Shown: piece by piece, positions 44,395 through 63,714 of the stretch
Layout of the letters: each line of letters opens with the position of its first letter
Position numbering within the stretch: the first letter of the stretch is position 1
Assembly: GCA_001874305.1 (NCBI GenBank)
Contig: MPCU01000009.1
Span: 62,001-126,000, forward strand
Direction of reading: 5' to 3'
DNA: 64,000 nt
Source: Bacteriovorax sp. MedPE-SWde
GTDB taxonomy: Bacteria; Bdellovibrionota; Bacteriovoracia; Bacteriovoracales; Bacteriovoracaceae
Notes under the pieces: model-generated
What the model was told of the DNA's origin: nothing
The model's database searches: none
Seen by the model: the letters and a program-made list of their open reading frames with translations, nothing else
Position numbers and translations under genes: made by a program

Positions 44395-44769
44395 TTACTT
44401 GATACCTCTTTTTTCAAGTTCTAGTTTGAGATACTTTACTTCTAACTCTTGAAACCTTTTTAAAATATCCTTGATCACTGCTTGAAGCCACTTCGGTTGT
44501 TCATCTGAATTTGCTAAGAATGATGCATCGATTATCATGCACTTCGTATTTGTTATGGCCCTGGCCGATGCTGTTCTCCTGTGATTACCTAATAATGCAA
44601 GAGTTCCAAGGACTTCGCCCTTGCCAATTCTATTTAAGACAATCTCTTCGCAGTTTCTCTCTTTATAGACTTCGATTTTACCGCTTTCTACAAAGTAGAG
44701 AACTTCACTTTCATGTCCCTCGTCAAATAGGATCTCTCCAGCTTTAAAATACTTGTACGCTTTACTCAT
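44395..44769 (-). CDS. single-domain cyclic nucleotide-binding-like protein
   Basis: 'YFKAGEILFDEGHESEVLYFVESGKIEVYKE...IGKGEVLGTLALLGNHRRTASARA' resembles a CNB fold with PBC; no HTH. Confidence 0.85.
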   Translation of the reverse strand: MSKAYKYFKAGEILFDEGHESEVLYFVESGKIEVYKERNCEEIVLNRIGKGEVLGTLALLGNHRRTASARAITNTKCMIIDASFLANSDEQPKWLQAVIKDILKRFQELEVKYLKLELEKRGIK

Positions 44770-44850: not shown

Positions 44851-45771
44851 ATGAATGAGGTAAAATTTGATAGTATTGACGGTGATATTGCCGATCTTGT
44901 TTCAAAGTACTCTTTCTCGAGTGAGAATAATGAAATAATTATGAAGAACTCATCTTTTTTTCTCGAAACATTAGATGAGTCAATTGAGATTTTTTATACG
45001 TGGATGAAAGAGCAAAGCAATACTTTTGATGAATATTTTGCAGATGCTAAATTAATGATAACAGTAAAGAAGCTTCAAAAGTCATATTGGGAAACTTTCT
45101 TTTCTCAAGAGATTAATCAGGAATATATTGACTCTAGAAAGAAGGTAGGACAAGTTCACGCTCAGATAAACCTACCTCTTGAAATCTACTGTGCAGCAAT
45201 GAACAAATTTCAAATTATTTGGGATAATATTATTTCGAGTAAGAACTTTTCAAATGAAGTCGAACTTATTAAATGTATTCACAGAAAAATGAATATTGAT
45301 AGTTCTATCGTTTCTGCTACTTACAATATGTTAACAAATAAGAGAATTGCAGATCAAAATAGGGCCCTTCTCGAAATGTCTACTCCAGTAACTCTAATCT
45401 GGGACAGGATTTTACTCTTACCTATTGTTGGAATCCTTGATTCTAAGAGAACTCTGGATATGATGGATTCAATACTAAAAGAGATCTCACGTTCTCAAGC
45501 TGTTGTTGCCCTTATCGATATTAGTGGTGTAGCCGTTGTTGATACAGCAGTTGCTAATCATCTAATTAAAGTTACCAAGGCCACTAAGCTTATGGGTTGT
45601 GAAACGATAATCTCCGGTGTGTCCCCAGTCATTGCCCATACTATTGTTGACCTAGGAATTAGAATCGGCGAAATCAAAACAACTGCGGCCCTTAAAGATG
45701 CTCTTAGTATTGCGCTAAAGAAAGTGGAAGAATTGAAAATAGAGAATACGAATAAACATGCACAACTATAA
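44851..45771 (+). CDS. rsbR: stressosome scaffold/sensor RsbR: globin-like N-terminus plus STAS domain
   Basis: 'FYTWMKEQ...LQKSYWETFFSQEINQEYIDSRKKVGQVHAQINLPLEIYCAAMNKF' globin-coupled-sensor-like; STAS 'ALIDISGVAVVDTAVANHLIKVTKATKLMGCETIISGVSPVIAHTIVDLGI'. Confidence 0.9.
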   Translation: MNEVKFDSIDGDIADLVSKYSFSSENNEIIMKNSSFFLETLDESIEIFYTWMKEQSNTFDEYFADAKLMITVKKLQKSYWETFFSQEINQEYIDSRKKVGQVHAQINLPLEIYCAAMNKFQIIWDNIISSKNFSNEVELIKCIHRKMNIDSSIVSATYNMLTNKRIADQNRALLEMSTPVTLIWDRILLLPIVGILDSKRTLDMMDSILKEISRSQAVVALIDISGVAVVDTAVANHLIKVTKATKLMGCETIISGVSPVIAHTIVDLGIRIGEIKTTAALKDALSIALKKVEELKIENTNKHAQL

Positions 45772-46129
45772 TGCTAAAAATTTTAGACTGAATATTCACA
45801 TTAATAGCGATATCTTAACTGCTACTATGCAAGGAAGTGGAACTAGTAGAGAGCTTGAAGATGGTCGATACTTTATTTTAAATAACGTGCAAGAAAATAG
45901 TTTAAAAGGCGTCGTCCTTGATTTATCTGGTATGAATCTCATCGATAGTACCGAGTTTAGAGAAATCCAAGATACGATAAAGATGATTGAAATTCTCGGA
46001 GTAAAGGTCGTACTGATCGGATTAAATCAAGGAGTCATATCACATTTAGTAAATATGAATATCGAACTTGATGGAATGAGAACTACATGTAGCATGTCTA
46101 GTGCTATAGAGATTTTAAATAGGATATGA
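45758..46129 (+). CDS. rsbS: stressosome STAS protein RsbS
   Basis: 'GVVLDLSGMNLIDSTEFREIQDTIKMIEILGVKVVLIGLNQGVISHLV'; Ser in 'IDS' matches the RsbS phosphosite context. Confidence 0.85.
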   Translation: MHNYNAKNFRLNIHINSDILTATMQGSGTSRELEDGRYFILNNVQENSLKGVVLDLSGMNLIDSTEFREIQDTIKMIEILGVKVVLIGLNQGVISHLVNMNIELDGMRTTCSMSSAIEILNRI

Positions 46130-46521: not shown

Positions 46522-47103
46522 ATGAATTTCTCCGTCGGTGAATATATACGTCCATGTAAAGATGAAAAGGTTAGTGGTGATATTATTATCGTTAAAGAGC
46601 TTGAGGACTCTTTGCAAGTTTCTATGGTTGATGTCCTTGGTCATGGAGATGATGCCCATGCCGTCGCAAAAAAGATTGAGCGGTTTCTAATGAGTACTGA
46701 GGCATTAAGTCCTTCTTCTATACTTAAGGCACTAAATAAAGATATTCAGTCTACGAGAGGTGCTGCCGTTGGTATATGTAATATTCATAGAGAGTCTGGA
46801 GCTATAACATATTCAGGAATAGGCAATACGGGAATACGTATTCGTAGTAGTAAAGTCTTCGGAGGGTTTTCTAAAGAGGGAGTTGTAGGTCAATATACAA
46901 GGTCCATAGAGGACATAGAAGGTAGCATAAATAATGGGGACATTATAATTATGTACTCTGATGGACTTACTTCTCGCTTCAACTTTCCACAAATAAGTAA
47001 TGAAACAAATGAAAGCTTATCAGTTATTGCACGTGACTTTGTCTATGAATATGGAAAAGAGTTTGATGACTCCTCCTGCGTAATAATAGAGTGTAGAAAA
47101 TGA
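46522..47103 (+). CDS. rsbX: PP2C/SpoIIE-type phosphatase, RsbX-like
   Basis: 'MVDVLGHGDDAHAVA', 'GNTG', 'IIMYSDGLTSRF'; immediately after rsbT. Confidence 0.85.
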   Translation: MNFSVGEYIRPCKDEKVSGDIIIVKELEDSLQVSMVDVLGHGDDAHAVAKKIERFLMSTEALSPSSILKALNKDIQSTRGAAVGICNIHRESGAITYSGIGNTGIRIRSSKVFGGFSKEGVVGQYTRSIEDIEGSINNGDIIIMYSDGLTSRFNFPQISNETNESLSVIARDFVYEYGKEFDDSSCVIIECRK

Positions 47104-48434
47104 TCGAATTAGGGGCAGTTCTTGTTAAAAATAGTTACTCCATCGCAAAGTTTCGTGAAAAAGTATATCACTTATCTCGTAAATTAAATTTCTCAGATGT
47201 TGCTAGCGCTCGTTTTGGAGCAATATTCTCAGAGTTATGTAGATTGTTAAGTACCAATAGTAATGGGTTATTCGTTGAGATTTTTCTATCTAAGAAAGTT
47301 GAAGGTATTACAATTGTATATAAGTTACACTCTACGGATGTTTCTCAAGACATATTAATCGATTCTCTCGACTACTTTTCTTCAAGTCGAATAATAAATG
47401 GTGAATTAATAACTCTTGAATTAGAGATTGATTACAATAGTTTGAATTTGAGTTCTTCTTTAATTATAGAATTGACAGAAATTATTTTGAAAAAGAATAG
47501 AGAAGAGTTAATAGGCGAAGTTCAAGAGAAAAATGAAGAACTTACTCTTATCAATAAATCCCTTGAAAAGTTTGTTCCAGCTGACTTTCTAAAGTTTTTA
47601 GGAAAGGGAAGTATTAGTGACTTTAAACTAGGTGACGCTCTTGAAACTGACTTTACAATTTTGTTTACTGATATGCGCTCTTTTAGTTCTATCTCTGAAA
47701 ACATGACTCCAAACGAACTTCTTGAGTTCATGAATAAGTATCTTGACGTAGTTGTTCCTATAATAAGTGAAAATAATGGTTTTATTATTACTTATATCGG
47801 AGATGCAATTATGTGTGCTTTCCCTGGTGGAAGTGTCGATGCCGCTAATTGTTCTATTGAGATGATCAAAAAGGTTAATGAATATAACCTATCACTAGTT
47901 AAAACACTCGGACGAAAGGTTAGAATTGGAGTCGGAATAAATAAAGGAAAAACAGTAATTGGAATTCTTGGAAATGAACTAAGAATGGAGCCTGCTATTA
48001 TGTCTGACGTTGTAAATCTAAGTGCAAGGCTTGAGGCCTTAACAAAAGGTTATGATGCCGACATTATAATTAGCGATAGTGTCTATAAAGATTTAAAGGG
48101 GCATGAGTTACTATCTCAAATTAGGCAAATCGATTGTGTACAAGTCGTCGGTCGTGTAACCCCTGAAAAAATTTATGAAGTTGTAATTAGTAATAGTGAT
48201 ACAAAGATTGTTAATAAAAGAAATTATGAAAATGCTCTAAATCTCTATTTCGATAAGAAAATTATAGAAAGCTATAAAGCCTTGGCGGAACTTGAGCCAG
48301 GTGAAGATAAGGCCGTTGAAATCTTATCGAAGCGCTGTAAAGAAGTTGTCGTTTTTGATGAAAATGGCTTTCCCGTAGGTGAAGATATTCCAAATGGATG
48401 GACACCAATCAACTCTATTAAAACTAAGCTTTGA
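47100..48434 (+). CDS. class III nucleotidyl cyclase with N-terminal GHKL-remnant-like domain
   Basis: 'KFVPADFLKFLGKGSISDFKLGDALETDFTILFTDMRSFSSISENMTPNELLEFMNKYL', 'YIGDAIMCAFPGG', 'SDVVNLSARLEALTKGY'; ATGA overlap with rsbX. Confidence 0.9.
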   Translation: MIELGAVLVKNSYSIAKFREKVYHLSRKLNFSDVASARFGAIFSELCRLLSTNSNGLFVEIFLSKKVEGITIVYKLHSTDVSQDILIDSLDYFSSSRIINGELITLELEIDYNSLNLSSSLIIELTEIILKKNREELIGEVQEKNEELTLINKSLEKFVPADFLKFLGKGSISDFKLGDALETDFTILFTDMRSFSSISENMTPNELLEFMNKYLDVVVPIISENNGFIITYIGDAIMCAFPGGSVDAANCSIEMIKKVNEYNLSLVKTLGRKVRIGVGINKGKTVIGILGNELRMEPAIMSDVVNLSARLEALTKGYDADIIISDSVYKDLKGHELLSQIRQIDCVQVVGRVTPEKIYEVVISNSDTKIVNKRNYENALNLYFDKKIIESYKALAELEPGEDKAVEILSKRCKEVVVFDENGFPVGEDIPNGWTPINSIKTKL

Positions 48435-48764: not shown

Positions 48765-49085
48765 GTGGAGAATAATATGGGATTTGGAAAAAAGAATAAG
48801 GTAATGATTGAAATTGATGCAACTGAAATGAGTGATTCTCAAATTAGAATGCTGAAGACAATTAATACAATGCTAACGAATGTTCTAACAACTGAAGAAG
48901 AAGGTGAATTCTTTGACGGTAGTGCTGAGGCATTGAGAATGTGTGCATCCCTTATTAAGCAGGCCCATTTTGCAAATGATCTTCAATTTGATGGCATCCC
49001 ATATGCTGATCAGGCTTTAGAGTACTCTATGGATGTTTTATCTGAGCACATGATAAATTCTAAAGTTGTTCAATACGATAACTAA
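48765..49085 (+). CDS. hypothetical protein
   Basis: ORF with SD 'GTGGAG'; ATG near 48778 is the likely start. Confidence 0.6.
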   Translation: MENNMGFGKKNKVMIEIDATEMSDSQIRMLKTINTMLTNVLTTEEEGEFFDGSAEALRMCASLIKQAHFANDLQFDGIPYADQALEYSMDVLSEHMINSKVVQYDN

Positions 49086-49108
49086 GAAATAAAAAATATA
49101 AAGTTGAA

Positions 49109-61463: not shown

Positions 61464-63714
61464 ATTTGTCAGTTAGAGTGTAGACTCCATCCCAATCGTC
61501 TGGTGGTGGAGATTTTTTAAATGCTTTACTTCTTTCTATATATACTTTTGAAGGGTTTGTTTTTCGATTGATACCTGGAAAGCATCTTTCCTCCTCTTTC
61601 TCTGTTTCTTGAAATATTTTAAGGGCCTTGTCCCATTCTTGATTCTTATATAGCTTAAGACCTTTCTCGAAGCTTTCTTTTAATTTTATAATGTCTGGGC
61701 TCAAGTCATTGGCAAGACCTAAGAGCTCATAAGTTGTGACAGGCTCACTCTTTCCAACTACTCGGATAGTATCGATCTCTCTTGTGATAAATTCAGGGCC
61801 TGCGCTATCTTTTGTTACTTGGGATATGTATGAGTAGATACCGTATTGTTTGGCCGCTTCTTCGAGTCTTGCCGCTAAGTTTACAGAGTCTCCCATCATT
61901 GTGTAGTTCATACGGTCACGAGAGCCCATATTTCCTGTTACAATCTCACCTGAGTTTATACCGATTCTCATTCTCATTTGCTTTACGACTTCTGGCCACT
62001 TGTCTCCTTCACTTATCCATTTTTCTCGTAAGTCGCCAAGGACATCTTGCATTCTTATGGCAACTCGACATGCACGAGCGGCGTGATCTTCAAATATTAC
62101 AGGCGCCCCGAAAAAAGCAATGATGGCATCACCCTCATATTTGTCTAGTGTTCCGTGTTCCTCGAGTAAAATGTCGGTCATTTCTGTTAAGTATTCGTTT
62201 AGAAGTTCTACTAGTTGTTTGGCAGTCAACTTTTCAGAAAAAGTGGAAAAGGATTGAATGTCGGTAAAGTACGCCGTTAGGTTATGGGATTCTCCACCAA
62301 GTTCAGGTAGGTGTCCCGAATCGTACATCATATCAATGAGCTCTGGTGAGATATAGTTTCCAAATGCTTGTTTTAGAAAAGTTCTATCCTTATTCGCCAA
62401 ATAGAAGCTGATTGCACTGTCTAGAATGTAGGCGAGCACCACGGGGAAGAAGGCAAAGAACATAGCTATTTCATAGCCATTGGGAATGAAATAGAGAACA
62501 TCGGAGATGAAAACGAGAAAGCAATACCCGGCTATATAACTTGCATCAACTACAGCATTTTTTAAAAGTGAGATTAAGACAAACCCTAAGTATCCAACTA
62601 GTAAGATAGACCATGACCATAGAAATGCATCATCAATTGATTTGTATAAGCGTCCTGAAACTAGCATTTGAAGAACATTCATATGATAGTAGACGCCTGG
62701 AAGTTTTGCATCGATTGGACTATGTCTAAGATCGTGAGCACCAAAAGCAGTAGAGCCAATAAAGACAACTTTACCATTTAATAATTTTTTTAGTGACTCA
62801 TTATCATCTTCTCTTTCTACGATAGTTGCTAAACTTATCCTTGGAAAAGCAGATGTTCTACCGGCCCAGTTAACTCTCGATTCTCCATTATAATTTAGAA
62901 ACACATCACCCGTTTTAAGAGATAGTGTAGCATCACCAGACGCTGCAATTGAAAGCTTAGGGTTGTCTCCTGTGTATTTTGTATATGCCATGAGTGCTAG
63001 AGAATTGAAGTAGAGTGATTCAACATTTGCTACTAATGGATATTTTCTAAAAATTCCATCGGGGTCTTCCTTGATATCTATATAAGCTAAAGAAGCTGAA
63101 CTATTGATGACTTCTTTAATTGGATATGTGGTCGACATTACTCTGTGTTCTTCAAGTCCCTGAGGGCCATCTTGTTTAACCTCAAGCATGAAGTTGAATA
63201 AATCACTCGGTAATTCCTTAAAAGATACTTCGTCATCATTGGTATGCATTGAAGATAATGAGTAAGGGATAATAACAGAATTCCCCTCAATAGATTGAAA
63301 GCTTTTTATCGCCTCTGCAAACTTTTCGTCAGGAGAACGGCCTTTGAAAAATCTTTCTTTTTCAGAGAAAACAACATCAAAAACCACAACCTTTGCGCCA
63401 AAGATTTTGAGTTTATTTAAAATTGGAACCCATGAATTTCTTGACCAAGGGAATCGGCCAAACTTTTTTAGAGAGATTTCGTCAATCGCTGCAAGAACGA
63501 TTCTATTCTCTCGAAACTCTTCATCTAGCACCACATTCATTCTGTGATCGTAAAAGTAGTTCTCAAAATAGGAGGGGTAGGTGAGCTGTTTTTTAGTTGA
63601 TGGTGCAAGTCCAGAATTCAAGATCTCCCGCTCAAATTGATATAGAGTCATGCTAAGAGTTGCAAAGACAAAGATAAGTATCAATCCAAGGTTTCGTACG
63701 AATTTACTAGACAC
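61462..63714 (-). CDS. CHASE2-domain adenylate/guanylate cyclase
   Basis: N-terminal TM + CHASE2-like ('VLAAIDEISLKKFGRFPWSRNSW', 'GKVVFIGSTAFGAHDLRHSPI'), three TM helices, class III cyclase 'AYFTDIQSFSTFSEKL', 'LDKYEGDAIIAFFGAP', 'MNYTMMGDSVNLAARLE'. Confidence 0.94.
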   Translation of the reverse strand: MSSKFVRNLGLILIFVFATLSMTLYQFEREILNSGLAPSTKKQLTYPSYFENYFYDHRMNVVLDEEFRENRIVLAAIDEISLKKFGRFPWSRNSWVPILNKLKIFGAKVVVFDVVFSEKERFFKGRSPDEKFAEAIKSFQSIEGNSVIIPYSLSSMHTNDDEVSFKELPSDLFNFMLEVKQDGPQGLEEHRVMSTTYPIKEVINSSASLAYIDIKEDPDGIFRKYPLVANVESLYFNSLALMAYTKYTGDNPKLSIAASGDATLSLKTGDVFLNYNGESRVNWAGRTSAFPRISLATIVEREDDNESLKKLLNGKVVFIGSTAFGAHDLRHSPIDAKLPGVYYHMNVLQMLVSGRLYKSIDDAFLWSWSILLVGYLGFVLISLLKNAVVDASYIAGYCFLVFISDVLYFIPNGYEIAMFFAFFPVVLAYILDSAISFYLANKDRTFLKQAFGNYISPELIDMMYDSGHLPELGGESHNLTAYFTDIQSFSTFSEKLTAKQLVELLNEYLTEMTDILLEEHGTLDKYEGDAIIAFFGAPVIFEDHAARACRVAIRMQDVLGDLREKWISEGDKWPEVVKQMRMRIGINSGEIVTGNMGSRDRMNYTMMGDSVNLAARLEEAAKQYGIYSYISQVTKDSAGPEFITREIDTIRVVGKSEPVTTYELLGLANDLSPDIIKLKESFEKGLKLYKNQEWDKALKIFQETEKEEERCFPGINRKTNPSKVYIERSKAFKKSPPPDDWDGVYTLTDK

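Follow-up and report, generated by a model that had tools for sequence, protein, structure and literature searches.

Gene organization of the locus

The window analysed here, a 64,000-nucleotide stretch of contig MPCU01000009.1 of Bacteriovorax sp. MedPE-SWde, contains five forward-strand genes, from rsbR to a class III nucleotidyl cyclase, all of which overlap or abut (Table 1). The overlaps are 14 bases for rsbR/rsbS, 4 bases for rsbS/rsbT and 4 bases for rsbX/cyclase (ATGA), and rsbX begins one base past the rsbT stop. Gene order, phosphosites and kinase motifs are those of a Vibrio-type RsbRSTX stressosome, with Thr178 and Thr232 present in RsbR, intact ATP-site motifs in RsbT (Asn48 and Asp77-NGPGI) and the SpoIIE/PP2C motifs in RsbX. 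The stressosomes of Vibrio brasiliensis and V. vulnificus share with this locus a Protoglobin-STAS RsbR bearing a proximal His and a distal Tyr, followed by RsbS, RsbT and RsbX in the same order. A contig of the alphaproteobacterial MAG OFTM58 (locus L012) repeats this order, running from a globin-RsbR through S, T and X to a class III cyclase. Directly after the cyclase of the window lies a 106-aa ORF (48765-49085, +) that has no Pfam match, and past this ORF, at 49106, there is a terminator-like site, recognized by consensus match only.

Table 1 Features of the locus, in window coordinates
Feature	Position	Strand	Basis or remark
Stand-alone cyclic-nucleotide-binding protein, 124 aa, divergent neighbour	44395..44769	-	Pfam cNMP_binding, E 3.4e-20
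rsbR, 306 aa, Protoglobin + STAS	44851..45771	+	Pfam domains; V. vulnificus RsbR match
RsbR Tyr49, predicted distal B10 tyrosine, codon TAT	44995..44997	+	Alignment with HemAT; conservation
RsbR His103, predicted proximal F8 haem ligand, codon CAC	45157..45159	+	Alignment with HemAT; conservation
RsbS of 123 aa with one STAS domain; Ser64 where the phosphosite is expected	45758..46129	+	Pfam STAS, E 1.9e-7
RsbT, GHKL switch kinase, 131 aa	46126..46521	+	Pfam HATPase_c_2, E 1.4e-11
RsbX-like SpoIIE/PP2C phosphatase, 193 aa	46522..47103	+	Pfam SpoIIE, E 1.2e-10
Presumed output, a class III nucleotidyl cyclase of 444 aa	47100..48434	+	Start overlaps rsbX stop
Degenerate RsbT-like module, cyclase residues 1-95	47100..47384	+	Profile match to RsbT
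Signalling helix, approx. cyclase residues 122-157	47463..47570	+	Common to Vibrio and Flammeovirga stressosome outputs
Cyclase Thr231, Lys in six compared cyclases	47790..47792	+	Alignment
Cyclase Ala299, Thr or Asp in six compared cyclases	47994..47996	+	Alignment

The globin domain of RsbR

In RsbR, Pfam places a Protoglobin domain (PF11563) at residues 12-158 (E 1e-20) and a STAS domain at residues 185-271 (E 7.7e-10). Among solved structures, RsbR from the V. vulnificus stressosome is closest (7o0i_B, E 2.9e-78; 47% identity over the aligned part). A previous sequence-only reading of 44851-45300, which encodes RsbR residues 1-150 and hence nearly the entire globin domain, had singled out Tyr49 and His103, spaced by 54, as the ligand residues of a globin-coupled sensor (GCS). 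Both residues, together with both motifs quoted there, are encoded in the rsbR frame, and HMMER pairs Tyr49 with Tyr70 and His103 with His123 of HemAT, that is, with the ligand positions of this family. The spacing by itself carries little weight, since two Y..H pairs spaced 52-56 occur within RsbR; what raises Tyr49 and His103 above chance is their location in the Protoglobin domain, the HemAT alignment and their invariance. Indeed, neither residue varies in any of 15 globin-RsbRs from four bacterial groups (the window, V. vulnificus, nine further Vibrio-type rows, a divergent Vibrionaceae protein (L071), Flammeovirga, the Alphaproteobacteria MAG, and G350 from the window's own phylum), nor in one additional fragment, and the alignment shows that the pocket residues around them are kept as well.

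The AlphaFold model of the globin domain (pLDDT 84.7) places Tyr49 in the middle of helix 41-55 and His103 close to the end of helix 90-105. Its best fold matches are haem-binding GCSs, with a TM-score to target of 0.82-0.87 (HemAT 1or4_B, GsGCS 2w31 and AfGcHK 5ohe_A), as opposed to 0.69-0.72 for the haem-less B. subtilis RsbR (2bnl). The comparison with HemAT that had been suggested earlier thus puts the predicted fold nearer to the haem GCSs than to a haem-less RsbR. The protein has the makings of a haem-binding GCS input domain, namely a globin domain with the F8 His and the B10 Tyr at aligned positions, and family, structure model and conservation all lend good support to its assignment as a putative haem sensor. 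The genome has no other Protoglobin and also encodes a ferrochelatase (E 3.5e-81).

The same residues could in principle persist in a globin that has lost haem-based gas sensing and responds to another cue, as in the haem-less RsbRs of Bacillus. Globin RsbRs devoid of haem are known (2bnl and 3zta), and the window protein has Leu75 where most Vibrio RsbRs carry a distal Ser. However, these haem-less RsbRs are without the haem-ligand residues (PMC4976288), whereas His103, Tyr49 and their surrounding pocket are kept here in a fold closer to that of the haem GCSs; moreover, the RsbR of L012 also has Leu at position 75 and yet retains the Tyr and the His. We consider the loss of haem sensing very improbable. 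Position 75 aligns with Ser68 of BpeGReg and a Thr of HemAT, and the substitution of Ser by Leu means that the O2 affinity of the window protein may differ from that of its Vibrio counterparts. Every globin-RsbR in the comparison has a Gln at the next position (Gln76, 45076-45078), where GsGCS has a His; this Gln is possibly an additional distal-pocket residue peculiar to RsbR globins.

Sensing by such proteins has been established in Vibrio. Haem binding and O2 sensing by V. brasiliensis RsbR were shown in 2016 (PMC4976288), and haem binding by V. vulnificus RsbR in 2022, where RsbR 1-165 is red and the Soret peak of the RsbR:RsbS complex shifts from 414 to 431 nm when deoxygenated (PMC9237108). 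In V. brasiliensis, oxy and ferric RsbR give basal RsbT activity, the unliganded ferrous form gives high activity, and the NO and CO forms give intermediate activity (PMC4976288). That the Fe(III) and Fe(II)-O2 forms both give basal activity, and the NO and CO forms intermediate activity, would also suit a haem redox or NO sensor, as would the distal pocket of the window protein, which differs at residue 75. However, like O2-binding GCSs, the window protein retains the distal Tyr, and we regard a sensor of redox state or NO rather than O2 as unlikely. Of the direct O2, NO or redox sensor envisaged in the sequence-only reading, the haem sensor is the well-supported part, with O2 as the likely ligand by homology; NO and redox sensing are possible and less supported.

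The cyclase and its N-terminal module

The catalytic domain of the downstream enzyme (residues 184-352; Pfam Guanylate_cyc, PF00211, E 6.1e-17) has photoactivated adenylyl cyclases as its closest matches (E ~1e-22) and belongs to class III, with both metal-binding aspartates (Asp191 and Asp235) and the transition-state residues Asn306 and Arg310 in place. The base-recognition pair departs from that of a canonical adenylyl cyclase: the Lys and the Asp/Thr found in all six cyclases compared (bPAC, OaPAC, the L012 cyclase and three others from the window's own genome) are Thr231 and Ala299 here. We therefore refrain from labelling this enzyme an adenylyl cyclase, and with both residues non-canonical the product (cAMP versus cGMP) cannot be named. 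Since both base-recognition residues are replaced, the enzyme could be weak, oddly specific or inactive. That the domain has lost catalysis, or yields an unusual product, and would act by binding or scaffolding instead of as a source of cAMP or cGMP is a minority reading to be taken seriously in view of this double replacement; set against it, Asp191, Asp235, Asn306 and Arg310 are all kept. Dead cyclases usually lack some of the metal or transition-state residues.

The genome has four class III cyclase domains in all. One of the others lies in the window, at approximately 61722-62285 on the reverse strand within a 757-aa frame, and resembles a cyclase on contig C14.

The head of the stressosome-linked cyclase (~95 residues) scores 39.3 over 88 columns against an RsbT profile, whereas none of 60 column-shuffled controls exceeds 14.8. 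It is similar in profile to the RsbT/GHKL kinases; the ATP-site motifs are missing, with neither the N-box Asn nor DxGPG present and a Leu at the position of RsbT N48, and we do not class it as a kinase. The cyclase heads of the window and of L012 match each other (z 15.6), and both are RsbT-like and devoid of the ATP-site residues. The cyclase thus looks, from its sequence, as if it starts with a dead copy of the stressosome's own kinase. The AlphaFold model of the head is of low confidence (pLDDT 64), and a fold search with it gave nothing usable.

In the window cyclase, the helix that follows the head matches the histidine-kinase outputs of Vibrio and the phosphatase outputs of Flammeovirga (probability 94.4 with a 34-column profile; pairwise z 6.5-10.9), and it has K-S-R-D-E-L...K-N-x-E-L in common with the Vibrio helix. 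The heads of these outputs bear a weak likeness to the cyclase head (25.7 versus 18.6 in shuffles) and show no match to RsbT by profile, nor do the Vibrio heads match it when taken by themselves; we therefore discarded the notion of RsbT-like heads in every output. For the same reason, a single coupling fold across stressosome outputs is no more than a possibility. The output modules match no Pfam family above the cut-off, and tblastn of the N-terminal modules against plasmids returned self matches or nothing.

The coupling of the cyclase to the stressosome is read from architecture, and the gene could simply be co-transcribed with the operon and escape its control. We find this rather improbable, as the rsbX and cyclase genes overlap, the gene order is repeated in a second phylum, the cyclase bears an RsbT-like head, and its helix is common to the outputs of other globin stressosomes.

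Proposed pathway and related systems

Based on the above data, we propose that the locus probably specifies a stressosome that senses through haem, most likely O2, and has a nucleotidyl cyclase as its output. In this scheme we infer haem binding, O2 as the ligand, assembly of the ~1.8 MDa complex, the direction of regulation, the product and the link to an effector; the sensing half follows published relatives by analogy, and the cyclase half is deduced from gene and domain architecture. RsbR would hold haem through His103, with Tyr49 touching the bound gas, and would form the stressosome core together with RsbS. By analogy with V. brasiliensis, O2 on the haem would hold RsbT activity low, and its loss would lead to increased phosphorylation of RsbR and RsbS by RsbT, which RsbX would reset. 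The cyclase would be the effector, its RsbT-like head lacking an ATP site and the adjoining helix serving as a coupling element under the control of RsbT or the stressosome. Along with phosphorylation of RsbS, the loss of O2 would alter the contact of RsbT or the core with the pseudo-RsbT head and, in turn, cyclase activity. Part of the effect of the cyclic nucleotide may then be exerted by way of the neighbouring cyclic-nucleotide-binding protein, a plausible candidate receiver by position, although it accounts for one of the 15 cNMP-binding domains of the genome. A search of five congeners for this protein gave no hit at E<=1e-15. The earlier suggestion of a route from gas to stressosome to cyclic nucleotide gains support, at the level of gene architecture, from the overlapping operon, its recurrence in a second phylum and the RsbT-like cyclase head; its last step can be stated as a cyclic nucleotide and not as cAMP or cGMP in particular.

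The sensor half of this system is of an already established kind, and its unusual part is the cyclase output downstream. In Vibrio, the output is instead a PAS/histidine kinase/receiver protein, with a receiver protein encoded after it. Class III cyclases are absent from the list of downstream domains compiled by Heinz et al. (PMC9237108), and a stressosome with such an output was not found in the literature searched, which covered few subscription journals. As far as the account of Quin et al. (2012) in PMC4976288 goes, the Moorella thermoacetica stressosome likewise controls the synthesis of a second messenger, with a diguanylate cyclase (c-di-GMP) as its output in contrast to the class III cyclase of the window. 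HemAT, DosC and AfGcHK have an input domain of the same haem-globin type, Tyr and His included, but join sensor and output in one chain, whereas a stressosome stands between the two here.

The locus bears on how stressosomes reach their outputs without sigma-B or RsbU_N. According to Heinz et al., most downstream proteins of stressosomes, including those of V. vulnificus, are without RsbU_N, and an interaction between VvRsbT and VvD1 was not detected (PMC9237108). As a small soluble enzyme headed by an RsbT-like pseudo-domain, the cyclase offers a candidate coupling element with a simple enzymatic read-out, and a class III cyclase would join the outputs of O2-sensing stressosomes. Somewhat speculatively, outputs may carry their own pseudo-RsbT: the cyclase would dock on the RsbR-RsbS core or pair with RsbT and be switched when O2 leaves the haem, and related head-plus-helix modules would serve generally to couple globin stressosomes to outputs that are devoid of RsbU_N.

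The locus in L012 resembles that of the window in its globin-RsbR-S-T-X genes and in the RsbT-like head of its cyclase. In contrast, its cyclase domain belongs to another subtype, carries the canonical Lys and Asp, and is probably, to judge from these residues, an adenylyl cyclase; no cyclic-nucleotide-binding gene was seen beside it. The RsbR tree leaves a single origin of the two loci unresolved. L012 was found, together with L011, when genome contigs were scanned with a two-sequence alignment, whereas a single-sequence scan of genome contigs gave no relative. Within the window's phylum, 3 genomes out of 369 give a match to the globin profile, namely the window's own, G350 and G310 (the last through a 541-aa ORF), and none of five other searched genomes of the same genus does. 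The profile matches one genome besides that of L012 itself among 385 of the latter's class (a 1150-aa frame), and 11 of 198 in a sample of the Vibrio family. In G026, from the same family as the window genome, a three-gene RsbR-S-T-like set (L010, 1627-2802) has as its RsbR-like protein a bare STAS of 151 aa without a sensor domain. In G350, a globin-RsbR/S/T/X operon (L073, G350:C6:16500-21500) is followed by a kinase whose N-terminus looks different from the cyclase module and may resemble RsbU_N.
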